This document shows, piece after piece, positions 3,780-40,524 of a stretch of 64,000 nucleotides of DNA. The stretch comes from Candidatus Rokuibacteriota bacterium (GTDB lineage Bacteria > Methylomirabilota > Methylomirabilia > Rokubacteriales > CSP1-6). Under the pieces are notes generated by a model. The model worked only from the letters and a program-made list of their open reading frames with translations. It was not told the DNA's origin and searched no databases. How positions within the stretch are numbered: the first letter of the stretch is position 1; each line of letters starts with the position of its first letter. A program made the position numbers and the translations under genes. The stretch spans positions 62,001-126,000 of the forward strand of contig JACPIQ010000068.1 in the NCBI GenBank assembly GCA_016188005.1. The letters run 5' to 3'.

Positions 3780-4711
3780 TTGAGCTCAACGAAGACCTCT
3801 TCGAGATCGGGCTCGCACACCTCGCATCCCCGCACCACCACCCCCTGCTCGTGGAGCCACCGCAGGAGCTCCGGCAGCCGCTTGTCGGCCGCATCCACCG
3901 CGCACTCGATATGGTCCTCCCGCAGCCGGCACTCGAGCACCCCCGGCAGCGAGGACAGGCCGGCGGGCTCCAGCGGGTCCAGCCTCAGCGCAATGACCTC
4001 CCCCAGCCTGATCTGGCGCTTGAGCGCGTCCGGGGCGCCCTGGGCCAGGATGCGCCCGGCCTTGATGAAGGCGACGTCGTCGCAGAGCTCTTCGGCCTCC
4101 CGCATGTAGTGGGTGGTGAGGATGATCGTGGTCCCCCGCTCCCGCCTCAGGCGGGCGATCTGGGCGCGGATCCTGATGGACACGTCCGGATCGAGCCCCA
4201 GCGTGGGCTCGTCGAGGAAGAGCACTTCCGGCTCGTTGAGGAGCGCCTTGGCGAAGGCCAGCCGCTGCTTGAGCCCGGTGGACAGCTCGTTGTACTCCGT
4301 CTTGCGGTGTGAGGTGAGCTCACACAGCTCGATGAGCTCTTCCACGCGCCGTCTCAGGGCGCCGCCCGAGAGGCCGTAGAGCCTGCCGTAGAACATGAGC
4401 ACTTCTGCCGGCCTGAGACTCCAGACGAAGGAGGCATTGCCGCTGGCCATGTTGAGCCGGCGGCGCACGGCCAGACTCTCCCGCACGACATCCATGCCGA
4501 GCACGCTGGCCGACCCCGCATCAGGCAGGAGCAGCGTCGCCAGGATGGAGAGCAGCGTGGTCTTCCCGGCCCCATTGGGCCCGAGCAGCCCGAAGATGGC
4601 CCCGCGGGGGACTTCGAGGCTCACCCCCCGGAGCGCCTCGGTGCGCCGGCGATGAAACCAACCCGTTTTGAAGGCCTTCGTCAGGCCGCGCGCCTCCACG
4701 GCGGGCATCAC
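3773..4711 (-). CDS. ABC transporter ATP-binding protein (ABC-2 exporter)
   Basis: 312 residues. Walker A GPNGAGKTT near residues 44-52, signature ELSTGLKQRLA (the canonical LSGGQ reads LSTGL), Walker B EVLFLDEPTLGLD, and switch His in TTHYM. A C-terminal extension of about 80 residues (DUF4162-like) is typical of ABC-2 drug or lipid exporter ATPases. It energises the permease at 2859-3686. Two starts are possible, GTG at 4711 or ATG at 4708. The GTG lies exactly 6 nt after a TACGAT -10 box, so a leaderless GTG start is plausible. The final codons fall inside the tandem repeat. Confidence 0.88.
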   Translation of the reverse strand: MMPAVEARGLTKAFKTGWFHRRRTEALRGVSLEVPRGAIFGLLGPNGAGKTTLLSILATLLLPDAGSASVLGMDVVRESLAVRRRLNMASGNASFVWSLRPAEVLMFYGRLYGLSGGALRRRVEELIELCELTSHRKTEYNELSTGLKQRLAFAKALLNEPEVLFLDEPTLGLDPDVSIRIRAQIARLRRERGTTIILTTHYMREAEELCDDVAFIKAGRILAQGAPDALKRQIRLGEVIALRLDPLEPAGLSSLPGVLECRLREDHIECAVDAADKRLPELLRWLHEQGVVVRGCEVCEPDLEEVFVELNR

Positions 4712-4717
4712 CGGGCC

Positions 4718-4729
4718 ATCGTACCACCG
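4718..4729 (-). promoter_or_regulatory. Extended -10 promoter, probably leaderless (ABC exporter)
   Basis: On the minus strand the sequence reads GGTGGTACGATGGCCCG directly before the GTG of the ATPase gene: TGn-TACGAT, then 6 nt, then the start codon. An almost identical string precedes the cyclase gene at 44050. The geometry leaves no room for a Shine-Dalgarno leader. Confidence 0.5.
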
Positions 4730-4825
4730 CGGCCCGGGGGGCGGGCGGCGGGCGCCCGTTGCTTCTCGGGCCCGTGTGCCCGGGGACGACCCATCGCCCT
4801 CCGCTCCGGAGACCCCCCCTCGGGT

Positions 4826-4854
4826 TTGAAGCGCCCCGGTTGATCTGGTAGAAC
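4826..4854 (+). promoter_or_regulatory. Sigma-70-like promoter for the Rieske gene
   Basis: TTGAAG (4826-4831), a 17-nt spacer and TAGAAC (4849-4854), followed 6 nt later by the GTG start at 4861. This predicts transcription beginning at or next to the start codon, so the mRNA would be leaderless. Confidence 0.55.
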
Positions 4855-4860
4855 CGGAGC

Positions 4861-5217
4861 GTGGATGCCCAGGAGGAGCCCACCGCGTGGCGGTGTCAGG
4901 CCGCTGCCCTGGCCCCAGGCCAGACCGCGACCTTCCGCCTGGAGCGCAACGGGAAGGCGGTGCACGGCTTCGTCGTGAACCACGCCGGCTGCCACCACGC
5001 TTACGTCAACCGCTGTCCCCATGCAGGCACCCCGCTGGACCTCTGGCCCAACGAGTTCTGGACCGAGGACGGCCGGCACCTCGTCTGCGCCACTCACGGT
5101 GCCATCTTCGGCCCGGACACCGGCGTCTGCCTCGACGGCCCCTGCCCCGGTGACCGGCTCGAGCGCCTCCCCGTCGAGCGCGATGGAGATACGCTGGTGA
5201 TCTCATGTCCGACCTGA
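4861..5217 (+). CDS. Rieske [2Fe-2S] domain protein
   Basis: 118 residues, a single Rieske domain. The cluster ligands are C-P-H (CPHAGTPLD, about residue 52) and C-x2-H (CATHGAIFGPDTGVC, about 79), the usual CxH...CxxH arrangement. This is the size of soluble Rieske ferredoxins that feed ring-hydroxylating or other oxygenases, although no oxygenase lies beside it. The GTG start is supported by a promoter 6 nt upstream. Its end overlaps the next gene by 13 bases, so the Rieske, SnoaL-like and GNAT genes form one transcript. The redox partner is unknown. Confidence 0.85.
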   Translation: MDAQEEPTAWRCQAAALAPGQTATFRLERNGKAVHGFVVNHAGCHHAYVNRCPHAGTPLDLWPNEFWTEDGRHLVCATHGAIFGPDTGVCLDGPCPGDRLERLPVERDGDTLVISCPT

Positions 5218-5630
5218 CCCCGGACGAGGAGATGGCCGAGGTCGAGGAGGCCAACAGCCGCTTCTACCGCGCCGTCGAGAGCCTGGCCATCACCGAGATG
5301 GACAGGATCTGGTCCCGCGGCGACCACGTCCGCTGCATCCACCCGGGCTGGGGGCCCCTCGAGGGCTGGGAGGCGGTGCGGCAGTCTTGGCAAGCCATCT
5401 TCAAGGACAGTCCCGAGATGAGCTTCACGCTCGCGCACGTCCAGATCCGGGTCGGCGGCGACATCGCCTGGGTGACCTGCACCGAGAACATCCTCTCCCA
5501 GGTCCGCGGGAACATCGGCGTGACCACGGCGCTCGCCACCAATGTCTTCGAGCGCGAAGGCGGCGACTGGCTCATGGTGCTCCATCACGCCTCGCACATC
5601 CTGACTGGCGCCCCGCCGGGGGAGGCCTGA
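5205..5630 (+). CDS. SnoaL-like / NTF2-fold protein
   Basis: 141 residues. N-terminal helix (EEANSRFYRAVESLAITEMDRI) followed by the HPGWGPLEGWEAVRQSW segment and beta strands ending in WLMVLHHAS, the pattern of the SnoaL_3/DUF4440-type NTF2 fold. Members are small enzymes (isomerase or hydrolase-like) or binding domains; function cannot be assigned. It overlaps the Rieske gene start-to-stop by 13 bases, and its TGA shares a base with the following ATG, so all three genes are coupled. Confidence 0.7.
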   Translation: MSDLTPDEEMAEVEEANSRFYRAVESLAITEMDRIWSRGDHVRCIHPGWGPLEGWEAVRQSWQAIFKDSPEMSFTLAHVQIRVGGDIAWVTCTENILSQVRGNIGVTTALATNVFEREGGDWLMVLHHASHILTGAPPGEA

Positions 5631-35601: not shown

Positions 35602-35971
35602 GGTCGTGGCGGCGGTGATCGAGCGCGCCGACAGGCTCCTCATCACGCGGCGCCCCGAGGGCTCGCACCTGGCGGGGCTCTGGGAGTTCCCCGGCGGCAA
35701 ACCACACGTGGGCGAGAGCCTGGAAGATGCGCTGCGACGGGAAGCCCGGGAGGAGCTGGGCGCCGAGGTCACGGTCCTGGACAGGCTGGACACGATCGAC
35801 TGGGCCTACCCTGACAAACGCGTGCGGCTCGTCTTCTTCCGCTGCACGATGCAGGGCGAACCCCGGGCCCTCGAGGGCCAGGAGATGGCCTGGGTCGCGC
35901 GCGCGGATCTCTGCCGCTACGACTTCCCGGCCGCGGATGCGGCTCTGATCGCGCGTCTCAGCGGACGATGA
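35585..35971 (+). CDS. MutT-like NUDIX hydrolase (8-oxo-dGTP diphosphatase-like)
   Basis: 128 residues. Starts MQDLTPVVAAVIERADRLLITRR and carries the NUDIX box GGKPHVGESLEDALRREAREEL G (about 37-59, fits GX5EX7REUXEEXGU), preceded by LAGLWEFPGG, the pattern of MutT and the MutY C-terminal domain. It sanitises oxidised nucleotides or acts on related pyrophosphates. The first codons lie in the right arm of a repeat palindrome, so the element supplies the start; an internal GTG (VVAAVIE) could be the original one. The end overlaps the convergent TRAP permease by 14 bp. Confidence 0.83.
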   Translation: MQDLTPVVAAVIERADRLLITRRPEGSHLAGLWEFPGGKPHVGESLEDALRREAREELGAEVTVLDRLDTIDWAYPDKRVRLVFFRCTMQGEPRALEGQEMAWVARADLCRYDFPAADAALIARLSGR

Positions 35972-37853
35972 CGGGCGCCGGGGTGTCCCGGCGCCAGGCC
36001 GCGTAGCCGACGATGGCCCCGTAGAGCGCGAGCCCCGCCAGCTGCAGCGCCAGCGTCCGCAGCACCAGGAGCGCCGCCGCAACCGCGCAAAGCCCCCTGA
36101 GCCAGCCGGACATCGGCCCCCAGGCATGTCCGACCACCACCGACGCCACGGCGATCGCCGAGATCCCGGCGAAGCCCGACATGAGCAGCACCTGCGCCCA
36201 CTCCCCCGCGAGCAAGAGCTCCGGGTGGTAGACGAAGGCAAAGGGGACCAGGAACCCGGCGACGCCCAGGCGGAAGGCCTCGACGCCGGTGCCGAACATG
36301 TCCGAGCCTGCGATGTTCGCCGCAGCGAAGGCGGTCACGGCATCCGGCGGCGTGAGATCGGAGAGCACCGCGTAGTAGAAGACGAAGAGGTGCGCCGCCA
36401 GGAGCCCCACGCCCAGGTTGCCCATGGCGCCGGCGCCCACCGTCACCGCGATGACGTAGGCGGCCGTCGTCGGGATCCCCGTGCCGAGGATGGAGACCAC
36501 GACGAAGACCAGGATCATCGCGATGACGAGGATGCCCTGCGCGGCCTGCACCACCACGCCGCCGAAGGCCAGCGCAGCCCCCGTCCGTGTGAGAACGCCC
36601 ACGATCATCCCCGAGCCCGCCAGGGCCACGGCGATGGTGCCGGCGCTGAAGGCGGCCTCCACCAGCGCCTCCCAGCACTTCTTCGGCGTCATCCAGGTCC
36701 GGCGGTCCAGGAACGACAGCACGAAGGTGGCGGCGATGGTGTAGAAGGCGGCGCCCGTGGGCGAGTACCCCTGGGCCAGCAGGTACACGATGAGCCCGAA
36801 GGGGACCATGAAGTAGGCGCGCCGGAGCACCGGCCGCCAGGACGGCAGCTCGGAACGCGGCACCGGGCGCAGCCCGAAGCGGAGCGCGAGGAAGTGGACC
36901 ATGGCGAAGAGCCCGACATAGTAGAGGATGGCCGGGATGGCGGCGGCCTTGATGATCTCGAAGTATGAGATGCCGGTCACCTCCGCCATTATGAAGACAC
37001 CGGCGCCCATCACCGGGGGCATGATCTGCCCCCCGGTGCCCGCGATGGCCTCGATGGCCGCCGCGGACTTGGCCGAGTAGCCGCCGCGCTTCATGAGCGG
37101 GATCGTGAAGGAGCCGGTGGCGTAGACGTTGGCCACCGTGGAGCCGGAGATGGTGCCGAAGAGCGCCGAGCCGATCACGGCGATCTTCGCGGGCCCCCCG
37201 CGCGCCCAGCCCGCCAGGCGCACCGCCAGGTCGATGACGAACTCGCCCACGCCCGCCTTCATCATCACCGAGGCGAAGAGCACGTAGATGAAGAGGATGT
37301 TGGCCGAGATCCCGGTGAGAAAGCCGTACATGCCCTCGTCGCTCGCGAGGTAGACGAACTCCACCATGCGCGGCAGCGGGTAGCCCTTGAAGTGCAGGAC
37401 GCCCGGGAACCACTGGCTCGTGCCGAGATAGATCAGCGCCACGGAGATCGTGACGGCCATCCACGGCGACAGCGCGCGCCGGCACGCCTCGATGACCAGG
37501 AGGGCCATGACGATCCCGATCGCCACCTCGTGGGAGAGGACCGGCGAGGCGCCCTCCCAGCGGTGGTCGAGCCTGTCCCTGTCCCAGATGAGGTACGCGC
37601 TGGCGAGCCAGGAGGCCACTGCGAAGAGCCAGTCCGGAGCGCTGGGCCGGTGCCGGGGCGATGCCCTGCGGCACGGGAAGGCGAGGAAGACCAGCGGCAC
37701 GAGGAAGAGGAGGTGCATCGACCGCTGGACGCGCGGCTCGAAGACCCCGTAGCCCGCGGTGTAGAGATGAAAAAGGGAGGCCAGGGCAGCATACGCCCCG
37801 GCCCCCCACCCGGCGGTTCCAGATAAGCGCCTGATTATCCACCCCTCTGGCAT
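35958..37853 (-). CDS. TRAP transporter permease, fused 4TM/12TM (TAXI type)
   Basis: 631 residues. The first ~180 residues have four hydrophobic segments (DctQ-like), followed by a DctM-like part: EGMYGFLTGISANILFIYVLFAS, TISGSTVANVYATGSFTIPLMKR, GGQIMPPVMGAGVF, and SILGTGIPTTAAYVIAVTV. This is the fused permease usually paired with TAXI binding proteins. It imports an organic acid with a sodium or proton gradient. The TAXI binding protein gene lies 1.7 kb upstream on the same strand, separated by a three-gene islet. The substrate is unknown. Confidence 0.9.
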   Translation of the reverse strand: MPEGWIIRRLSGTAGWGAGAYAALASLFHLYTAGYGVFEPRVQRSMHLLFLVPLVFLAFPCRRASPRHRPSAPDWLFAVASWLASAYLIWDRDRLDHRWEGASPVLSHEVAIGIVMALLVIEACRRALSPWMAVTISVALIYLGTSQWFPGVLHFKGYPLPRMVEFVYLASDEGMYGFLTGISANILFIYVLFASVMMKAGVGEFVIDLAVRLAGWARGGPAKIAVIGSALFGTISGSTVANVYATGSFTIPLMKRGGYSAKSAAAIEAIAGTGGQIMPPVMGAGVFIMAEVTGISYFEIIKAAAIPAILYYVGLFAMVHFLALRFGLRPVPRSELPSWRPVLRRAYFMVPFGLIVYLLAQGYSPTGAAFYTIAATFVLSFLDRRTWMTPKKCWEALVEAAFSAGTIAVALAGSGMIVGVLTRTGAALAFGGVVVQAAQGILVIAMILVFVVVSILGTGIPTTAAYVIAVTVGAGAMGNLGVGLLAAHLFVFYYAVLSDLTPPDAVTAFAAANIAGSDMFGTGVEAFRLGVAGFLVPFAFVYHPELLLAGEWAQVLLMSGFAGISAIAVASVVVGHAWGPMSGWLRGLCAVAAALLVLRTLALQLAGLALYGAIVGYAAWRRDTPAPVIVR

Positions 37854-38176: not shown

Positions 38177-38602
38177 TTAGGGGGTCGCGGTCACGTAGAA
38201 TTCCTGATACCGCTCACGGAACCTAATTTGAAGGACGTTCAGGAAATCACGACCAAGCAGTGCTCTTCTAGCCTCATCAAGCATGAACGCAACCTTCAGC
38301 TGATAACGCCCGAGTTCGTCATGCGAGATGATGACATCGTGCAGGCGTGCATCATGAGAATGCCCCACCGTTGCGTCCAGCGCCAGAGGTTCGCCCTGGA
38401 GAAGCTCCAGCCCGATGAGGCTCGCAAACTCTCCCGGGAAGACGGACACCTCCGCTCCGGTGTCCACGTGTCCTACAACGTCGACCCCCAGCCCGTCATT
38501 CTGGGGGCTCTGAATCCTCACGACGAGCGCGGGGAACGACCTTCCGCGGCTGCCGGCGTCAGCGATGTAGGCGAATTGATGTCTGTAGTCGACAGACGGC
38601 AT
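38177..38602 (-). CDS. Retropepsin-like (clan AA) aspartic protease
   Basis: 141 residues. A single active-site triad D-T-G (VGHVDTGAEVSVFPGEFA, about residues 42-59) and the second structural motif ALLGRDFLNVL near 113-123 match retropepsin-like bacterial proteins, which work as homodimers with one Asp per chain. There is no signal peptide or membrane segment, so it acts in the cytosol. It starts 2 nt after the stop of the DUF5678-like gene and is the last gene of the islet. GC is clearly lower than in neighbouring genes, suggesting transfer. Targets are unknown; the two upstream proteins are candidates. Confidence 0.75.
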   Translation of the reverse strand: MPSVDYRHQFAYIADAGSRGRSFPALVVRIQSPQNDGLGVDVVGHVDTGAEVSVFPGEFASLIGLELLQGEPLALDATVGHSHDARLHDVIISHDELGRYQLKVAFMLDEARRALLGRDFLNVLQIRFRERYQEFYVTATP

Positions 38603-38604
38603 CG

Positions 38605-39105
38605 CTAGAGGCCTATATGGACGACACCCTTTGATCTCTCCTCATCAACGCGATACACAAACGGAACCTGAACACCCCTCTGTCGGGCTCCGCGCACCGC
38701 GTCCGACGGGCTCGGACCCATCGAGATGATCTCGTCGCCCTCCACAACGACCCATTTGCCCACCAGCGCGCGCAACTCATCGCGGTGTGTACGCAGCCAT
38801 TCCAGCTCCTTCTCCCGGCGACCCGACCCTGACCGAAGGGGTAGGCTGTCCATCTTCTCGCCATGGGCGACAGTGACACGAACTCTCTCACCCAAGAGCA
38901 ACGCGTCGGCAGCTACTACTTGCGCCAGCGCCCACGTACCTCCCACCGCAGGCCCCCCGATCAAGCTATTGAGCCAGGGGTGTTCTTCGACATAAGAGGG
39001 CATCACGTCGTGAACGGTACCTGAAACGCCGGACCAAGACGCGGCACCCGTCTCCGGGGGAATCGCTCCAACACCACTTGGCAGCTGAAGTTCGATCGTC
39101 GTCAT
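38605..39105 (-). CDS. DUF5678-like protein of the aspartic-protease islet
   Basis: 166 residues. The C-terminal ~70 residues (ELEWLRTHRDELRALVGKWVVVEGDEIISMGPS, then SDAVRGARQRGV) resemble DUF5678, a small domain often found beside retropepsin-like genes. The N-terminal ~90 residues (SLIGGPAVGGTWALAQVVAADALLLGERVRVTVAHG) are not recognised and contain the only hydrophobic stretch. The ATG overlaps the stop of the upstream gene (ATGA), and the retropepsin gene follows after 2 nt. The function is not known. Confidence 0.6.
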   Translation of the reverse strand: MTTIELQLPSGVGAIPPETGAASWSGVSGTVHDVMPSYVEEHPWLNSLIGGPAVGGTWALAQVVAADALLLGERVRVTVAHGEKMDSLPLRSGSGRREKELEWLRTHRDELRALVGKWVVVEGDEIISMGPSPSDAVRGARQRGVQVPFVYRVDEERSKGVVHIGL

Positions 39106-39404
39106 GTGCGGCGCCCCGCCCGTCGCGACTCCTCGATCCGTGGGAGTGCCAAGTCAAGGTACTCCTTCAGGGCCCTGGCCGCAGAGAATGTCACGATCAC
39201 GCGGGCAATGGGCTCCCGTCGCATGACGTCCTCTGTCGACGCTGGCGGAATCTCCGTCAGCCGCTCACCTGGACCAGCCATCACTTCGCGATGTGGCTTA
39301 TCAACGCGCCGCAGCTCGAGCGTGAGATCGTCCTCGGTCAGGAGTGACGTCACTATGTTCGCATAATAGGTCGGTGGCTCTTGGTGCCCACTCTCACCGG
39401 ACAT
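39102..39404 (-). CDS. Small DUF3467-like protein of the aspartic-protease islet
   Basis: 100 residues from the ATG at 39404, which has GGAGG 5 nt upstream; a GTG at 39410 would leave no spacing to that site. The pattern YYANIVTSLLTEDDLTLELRR, then EPIARVIVTFSAARALKEYLDLAL, resembles the two halves of DUF3467 (YANxV... PVARVVMSxxxAKxLxxxL). It is probably a small beta-alpha protein. It is the first gene of the islet and overlaps the DUF5678-like gene by 4 nt. The family resemblance is from memory and not certain. Confidence 0.55.
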   Translation of the reverse strand: MSGESGHQEPPTYYANIVTSLLTEDDLTLELRRVDKPHREVMAGPGERLTEIPPASTEDVMRREPIARVIVTFSAARALKEYLDLALPRIEESRRAGRRT

Positions 39405-39537: not shown

Positions 39538-40524
39538 CTACTTGAGCCAGCCCTTCTCCCGGTAGTACTTCTCGGCGCCCGGGTGAAGCGCCACGCCGAG
39601 GTACAGGTGCCCCTTGGAAGGGTCGTAGTCGGCGAGGCTGCCGTGGATCTTCCTGACCCGGTCCGCGTTGTCGTTGATGGTCTTGGCCAGCAGGTACGCC
39701 GTGTCGCTGGACATCTTGGCATTGACCGTGATCGTCGTGCCCATGGTCGCCGACAGCACGGGCTCGTTGGCATTGGCGGCCTTCGGGTAGGTCCCCGCGG
39801 GGATCGGCCCCTCACCGAGACCGAAGCCTGCCAGGTGCTGGAGCAAGGGCTTCGGGAAGGCCAGGAGCTTGAGGGTGCGTCCCACCGAGGCCTCGGTCAC
39901 CGAAGCGCCGGGCAGCGCCAGGAAGGTGAAGGTGCCGTCCACGTTCCTGTCCTTGAAGGCACCGGCCTGCTCCGCGTAGGAGCCACGGAAGAACTTGGCG
40001 CCCGCCGCCTCCCAGTCCTTGTAGGAGGTCTTGTAGTACTCCATCACCTTCTCGAAGACCCAGACATCAGACGAGCCGGGCTTGGAGATGGCCAGGCGAA
40101 TGGGCTTCTTGCTCTTGAAGATCTCCTCCATGGAGAGCTTGGCGAGGTCCGAGTCCACCGCGACATAGAAGTGGAAGGTATTGAGGCTCATGTTGCCGGC
40201 GAGGGCGCGGAGGTTAGGATGCTTCTTGCCCGGATACGGATCCTCGCCGCGGACGGCGGCGCCCAGGAGTGGCGGCAGCCCCATGCCGAGCTCGGCGTCG
40301 CCCTTCTCCACGAGCACCGGGTTCTGCGTGCCACCGCCGGGGATGACCTTGATGTTGAGCCCGGCCTTCTCGCGGATCAGCTCGGCCATGCCACCGGAGA
40401 TGGCGTACCAGCCGCCACCGACGGCGCCGGCCGTCCAGGTGAGGGATTGCTGGGCCGAGGCCGGGAGCGCCGGCAGCGCCAGGAGCGAGAGCGCGAGGAG
40501 CGCGGCGAGCGTGCGCGTGAGCAT
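39538..40524 (-). CDS. TAXI-family TRAP transporter substrate-binding protein
   Basis: 328 residues. Sec signal peptide (TLAALLALSLLALPALPASAQQ, cleavage near residue 24). The mature part has TAGAVGGGWYAISGGMAELI, VIPGGGTQNPVLVEKGDAELGMGL and TFTFLALPGASVTEAS, standard TAXI (TRAP-associated extracytoplasmic immunogenic) positions. It binds the solute in the periplasm for the fused permease at 35958-37853. The ATG at 40524 has an AGAGGAGG Shine-Dalgarno. The ligand class (often dicarboxylates or glutamate-like) is not evident. Confidence 0.9.
   Translation of the reverse strand: MLTRTLAALLALSLLALPALPASAQQSLTWTAGAVGGGWYAISGGMAELIREKAGLNIKVIPGGGTQNPVLVEKGDAELGMGLPPLLGAAVRGEDPYPGKKHPNLRALAGNMSLNTFHFYVAVDSDLAKLSMEEIFKSKKPIRLAISKPGSSDVWVFEKVMEYYKTSYKDWEAAGAKFFRGSYAEQAGAFKDRNVDGTFTFLALPGASVTEASVGRTLKLLAFPKPLLQHLAGFGLGEGPIPAGTYPKAANANEPVLSATMGTTITVNAKMSSDTAYLLAKTINDNADRVRKIHGSLADYDPSKGHLYLGVALHPGAEKYYREKGWLK

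Follow-up and report, generated by a model that had tools for sequence, protein, structure and literature searches.

Type II toxin-antitoxin modules with ribbon-helix-helix (RHH) or Phd/YefM antitoxins, for which we take the FitAB, VapBC and RelBE types as comparators, consist of two small adjacent genes with the regulator encoded first and are patchily distributed, and the locus considered here resembles them on each of these points. DNA-binding N-termini of antitoxin type are also common to these modules and to relatives of the locus in other genomes; the modules differ from it in that its effector would be a retropepsin-like protease of presumed toxicity, and in that its partner protein carries no recognised DNA-binding domain. 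A small protease gene likewise stands beside a regulator in the COG2856/ImmA and Xre/ImmR pairs, which Makarova et al. (2009) place, in the accessible text of their survey of type II systems, among toxin-antitoxin-like systems (PMC2701414); these pairs differ in combining a zinc metalloprotease with an HTH repressor, unrelated to retropepsins and to DUF5678. Membership of the locus in the ImmA/ImmR (COG2856) group was rejected, since its protease is of the D-T-G aspartic rather than the HEXXH type and its two other genes give no HTH match. The word "aspartyl" is absent from the available main text of the same survey.

Single-domain D-T-G aspartic proteases of bacteria, comparable to the one described here, include RimB, APRc and the RLOs in the portions of the literature available; the operon context of RimB differs, and the accessible part of the paper concerned (PMC11957791) makes no use of the term DUF. 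The prokaryotic single-domain clan AA families COG3577 and COG5550 are described as little known in the available text of a 2009 survey (PMC2642776). Among phage-defence candidates, PDC-M52 and PDC-M08 of PADLOC-DB have a B component that is retropepsin-like; such PDCs are unpublished putative candidates, several of them obtained via guilt-by-embedding, according to the accessible sections of PMC12988326. In the literature searched, whose coverage largely leaves out subscription papers and preprints, neither PDC-M52 nor PDC-M08 is mentioned and no paper brings together a retropepsin and an antitoxin. The retrieved portions of the literature on protease toxins and on RHH proteins with an aspartic protease held nothing relevant, and in the text available DUF5678 received a single incidental mention, in a plant-pathogen study, and no described function.

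The locus lies in a 64,000-nucleotide window, the whole stretch of DNA analysed, which derives from a MAG related to Candidatus Rokubacteria/Methylomirabilota and in which the list of open reading frames and their translations places three minus-strand genes, A, B and C, packed together at 38177-39404. Gene A (39102..39404, 100 aa), defined by its reading frame, its Shine-Dalgarno sequence and family searches, overlaps gene B (38605..39105, 166 aa) by 4 nt, and B is separated from gene C (38177..38602, 141 aa) by 2 nt. A strong Shine-Dalgarno sequence, GGAGGTG, precedes the ATG of A, and none is clear at B or C, which suggests translational coupling, probably of C to B. The GC content of the islet is 0.608 against a window mean of 0.709, below that of all sliding 1,228-bp stretches of the window (50-bp steps; minimum 0.610). 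The islet is situated between a solute-binding protein gene upstream (39538..40524, minus strand) and a permease gene downstream (35958..37853, minus strand), which we take to encode putative TAXI-type and TRAP-type importer proteins, respectively. An earlier note on this DNA had described three tightly packed co-directional genes, visibly lower in GC than their neighbours and lying between two TRAP-TAXI importer genes, and the coordinates and composition agree with it.

Gene C is assigned, from its sequence and from profiles, as a retropepsin-like (clan AA) aspartic protease. Both features that mark clan AA, Asp-Thr/Ser-Gly and hydrophobic-hydrophobic-Gly, are present: the catalytic motif Asp-Thr-Gly occupies residues 47-49 (38456..38464, minus strand), and LLG at residues 115-117 opens the second retropepsin motif, LLGRDFLN, at residues 115-122 (38237..38260, minus strand). 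C also gives a match to PF13975 just under the cut-off (25.3 bits, 2.3e-5; cut-off 28.2) and weak matches to NCBIfam clan-AA models; the paired retropepsin of another locus (L074) exceeds the cut-offs of PF13650, PF13975 and PF00077. When a profile of 12 such proteins taken from DUF5678 neighbours (A4) was compared with the PDB, the best solved relative was the retropepsin domain of eukaryotic DDI1 (E 9.9e-11), and HIV-type proteases were also matched. The DDI1 domain is part of larger ubiquitin-related proteins, and we know of no DUF5678 partner for it. The structural model of C itself is poor (pLDDT 49), and its Foldseek list was uninformative.

No segment of C resembles a signal peptide: scanned over its full length, it reaches a 17-residue hydrophobicity mean of 1.44 at most, while the N-terminal peaks of seven generic Rokubacteria aspartic proteases lie at 1.96-2.69 on the same measure. 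Because it lacks a strongly hydrophobic segment, unlike those seven, C is probably cytoplasmic. Many larger Rokubacteria aspartic proteases (L061-L071) have hydrophobic N-termini and no DUF5678 neighbour, and they form a separate, probably exported group. A comparison of C between the window's own genome and one of the same genus (G000 and G002) gives a dN/dS of 0.26 over 104 codons, by which C is under purifying selection; in the same comparison, C has the larger dS, 0.85 against 0.25 for the permease. Counting the window's own genome, 3 of 99 genomes hold a clear homologue of C, and one further match among the 99 (4.3e-4) covers only 61 residues within a long frame. The genome-contig scan for relatives of C, which used two patterns from its C-terminus, returned three loci, and its named relatives are GWC2_70_16 and NC_groundwater_1099.

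The partner protein encoded by gene B is composed of an unassigned N-terminal extension (residues 1-96; 38818..39105, minus strand) and a DUF5678 core (residues 98-160; 38626..38814, minus strand) with a predicted alpha-beta-beta-alpha-beta-beta fold. The model of B has fair confidence for the core alone (pLDDT mostly 72-84), the extension being its low-confidence part (pLDDT <50). Fold searches with this model returned no Foldseek match at E <= 0.001, and the best Z score, 4.9, was obtained for model residues 1-81, in the low-confidence part, against a PII-like protein and ferredoxin-like designs. A Pfam scan of B recognised no DNA-binding domain. The description of B as DUF5678-like draws on its homologues in G087 and L007, which exceed the PF18929 cut-off; the window protein itself reaches 16.7 bits against a cut-off of 23.2, and relatives sharing 42% and 38-39% of their residues with B reach 41.7 and 36.4 bits. 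The L007 locus (4694-5419) holds a DUF5678-retropepsin pair whose retropepsin is frameshifted and which is close to the Methylomirabilota versions, on a contig titled as a Klebsiella pneumoniae MAG; the title may reflect a mislabel or a contaminated bin.

Gene A is an orphan, with no relative in the 98 genomes searched besides the window's own, and only weakly DUF3467-like. The earlier label of DUF3467-like for this gene did not survive the comparison with PF11950 (14.5 bits, below the cut-off of 25) or with the DUF3467 profile in hhalign (probability 0.6%), and the identification of A as DUF3467 is unsupported. In addition, none of 15 DUF3467 loci has a retropepsin or DUF5678 match nearby, and in the G087 islet a different gene of 208 aa occupies the place of A. 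The proposal that the three genes together form one module failed on these results, and the three-gene unit was rejected because A is not shared; the conserved unit, as judged from the genomes compared, is the pair B-C. The 208-aa protein of G087 (L006, 3829-4452) is encoded directly upstream of the DUF5678 gene, has no Pfam or NCBIfam match and starts with QLIWTGAN, similar to the start QLKWTGAN of the L007 DUF5678 protein.

To count recurrence of the pair, PF18929 was searched in 290 genomes, where it was found at 27 places in 20 genomes, and in four phyla with earlier hits, giving 51 distinct places in all; since these phyla were picked for an observed hit, and three of them contained only 5, 2 and 3 genomes, the counts are uninformative on prevalence. 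A place was scored as a pair where the sequence immediately downstream on the same strand matched the retropepsin model over 90 residues or more and contained D[TSC]G. By this rule, the pair is present at 38 of the 51 places, with gaps of -30 to 134 bp between the model matches; the remainder comprise three fragments, two places off the contig end and eight without a retropepsin. Two of the 51 places, scored as misses, lie by eye inside unrelated long proteins, an RND-type transporter (L035) and FtsZ (L127), and are probably false. The association of the protease with a partner is non-random (38/51 against 0/15 for the DUF3467 control), and the families recur in the proposed order for B and C, A forming no part of it. 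Sequences from 11 of the 38 pairs contributed to the retropepsin model A4, and those from the other 27 did not. D[TSC]G, itself part of the counting rule, occurs in 38/38 pairs, the places lacking it being two fragments; hydrophobic-hydrophobic-Gly also occurs in all 38 and xGR in 30. The earlier note had named loss of the Asp-Thr-Gly and LGRDFL motifs in homologues as a refuting condition.

The reverse search, which is biased because the retropepsin model was built from DUF5678 neighbours, yielded 25 retropepsin places at E <= 5e-14, one of them cut by a contig end, and a DUF5678 gene lies upstream in 19 of the 24 testable ones. Sequence distances among the DUF5678 proteins track those among their retropepsins, with r 0.91 over the 38 pairs, 0.85 within one phylum (18 pairs) and 0.63 outside it (20 pairs), a co-divergence that host ancestry alone could also explain. 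Alignment A9 leaves out L076, L086 and, because part of it is masked, L089, which is still included in the count of 38. One locus (L031, 745-2084; G277:C82) carries two DUF5678 genes separated by about 0.5 kb, with a retropepsin after the second only.

The N-termini attached to DUF5678 vary between lineages. In the phylum of G170, a retropepsin is present at 18 of 18 DUF5678 places, and an N-terminal ribbon-helix-helix motif in 17 of these 18 proteins, the one without it beginning at a contig end; a regular expression recognised 15 of the 17, and the other two, L034 and L076, whose Met the pattern disallowed, were identified by eye. All 15 RHH proteins scanned have a DUF5678 match, and 13 match FitA-like_RHH at E <= 0.05, one of them (L085) above the Pfam curated cut-off. 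The profile of this RHH-DUF5678 family matches RHH proteins of the CopG and antitoxin types whose structures are solved (E 2.1e-4 and 2.5e-4). The RHH fusions come from one phylum and may represent a single event, and most DUF5678 partners outside it are short proteins without a recognised DNA-binding domain. G011 belongs to the window's family; there, a DUF5678 match below cut-off (1.5e-4) follows a Phd/YefM-like N-terminus (26.8 bits, 4.6e-6; cut-off 29.8) and precedes a retropepsin. In G023 the DUF5678 protein has a TPR-like extension. At two of the retropepsin places from the reverse search, L062 (1495-2102; G221) and L129 (G141), a small antitoxin-like gene precedes the retropepsin in place of DUF5678; the G221 gene matches PADLOC PDC-M52A at 3e-4 and Unstab_antitox at 0.0077, and the G141 gene resembles it by eye.

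As regards PADLOC, PDC-M52B is matched at 2.4e-9 by the C-type protein from L018 and at only 0.013 by window C; neither A nor B of the window matches any PADLOC model at E <= 1, nor does any DUF5678 protein searched match one. An identification of the islet with PDC-M52 was rejected on these values. Because PADLOC-DB already contains retropepsin-like defence candidates, the DUF5678-retropepsin pair is ranked as a variant added to a known kind.

The gene order, the conservation of the pair, the retained catalytic motifs, the antitoxin-type fusions and the absence of the islet from G004 (see below) would be best explained if the islet were an acquired module with B and C as its core, in which the DUF5678 protein restrains a cytoplasmic retropepsin effector in a toxin-antitoxin-like manner; judged from sequence, we give this explanation about an even chance of being correct. 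B would bind and inhibit C, which would be active as a dimer; the loss or displacement of B would serve as the trigger that frees C, and the freed protease would cleave a cellular target, its toxicity leading to growth arrest or to a switch in response, much as type II toxin-antitoxin and abortive-defence modules act. In lineages where an RHH or Phd/YefM-like domain is fused to DUF5678, the fusion would provide autoregulation of the operon; in the window, this DNA-binding part would either be missing or escape recognition, its place perhaps taken by gene A or by the N-terminal extension of B. The simplest reading is that DUF5678 binds the protease, with a promoter-binding part attached to it in autoregulated operons, and that the protease is the effector, an arrangement like that of type II modules. 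Small adjacent co-directional genes, a feature of such modules, are kept as a pair at 38/51 places; a DNA-binding antitoxin domain is present in relatives (RHH, Phd/YefM-like) and unrecognised in window B. The earlier suggestion that the protease has a partner of its own in a possibly toxin-antitoxin-like unit fits the ordered pairs and the antitoxin-type N-termini elsewhere, and fails in its three-gene form. More tentatively, and with somewhat less than even confidence, DUF5678-retropepsin pairs may constitute a widespread and hitherto undescribed toxin-antitoxin or abortive-defence class with an HIV-protease-type effector, where DUF5678 would be a dedicated inhibitor carried on RHH, Phd-like, TPR-like or unassigned N-termini and elsewhere replaced by unrelated antitoxin-like partners, the window version adding gene A.

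The main rival is a switch resembling ImmA/ImmR, in which C would be a regulator rather than a toxin, cleaving the DUF5678 partner or its DNA-binding carrier and so inducing the operon or other genes. Such a role would suit the DNA-binding RHH and Phd-like N-termini that DUF5678 carries elsewhere, and COG2856 zinc proteases with Xre regulators are a described protease-repressor pair, classed as toxin-antitoxin-like in the accessible text of PMC2701414; however, many DUF5678 partners have no recognised DNA-binding domain and therefore offer no repressor for the protease to cleave, and retropepsin and ImmA are unrelated proteases, so that we regard the switch as unlikely. C could otherwise be a benign maturation protease, like RimB, to which B delivers substrate or which B helps to fold, with a role in metabolism or stress tolerance. 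Although RimB-like bacterial retropepsins have specific regulatory roles with partners, according to the available sections of PMC11957791, the patchy distribution, the insertion between importer genes and the antitoxin-type fusions are unlike a core enzyme and make a processing function quite improbable. That the genes are decaying or passenger sequences, chance neighbours sharing no function, would agree with the low GC and the insertion, both typical of foreign DNA, and with the orphan status of A, but is very hard to reconcile with the purifying selection on C (dN/dS 0.26), its kept catalytic motifs and the 38/51 recurrence of the pair.

If the toxin-antitoxin-like reading is correct, DUF5678 would be a retropepsin partner and the domain would gain a testable role, and bacterial retropepsins would be placed in a regulated context of module type. 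Toxin-antitoxin-like systems would also acquire, in a retropepsin effector, a toxin activity of a new kind, and PDC-M52 and PDC-M08 would be tied to a broader family.

A phage or plasmid origin of the islet was considered and found no match in the records searched: window C matched neither plasmid nor phage records, plasmid records likewise gave no match for one retropepsin and two DUF5678 proteins from other genomes, one DUF5678 protein had none in phage records, B and A of the window had none in viral contigs, and seven proteins had none in PHROG at E <= 0.01. A comparison of close relatives at the importer genes had been proposed in the earlier note. In G004, of the same family, the orthologous importer genes (permease 80% and binding protein 77% identical) adjoin and the islet is absent, so the islet was probably acquired; in G002, of the same genus, C is present and adjoins the permease at a contig end, which falls within C itself. 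In G007, also of the same family, the same importer gap of about 2.1 kb carries a prepilin-like gene in place of the islet, and the gap may therefore be a repeated insertion site. This prepilin-like gene lies at 534-1133 of L108 (G007:C123), between the same two importer genes.
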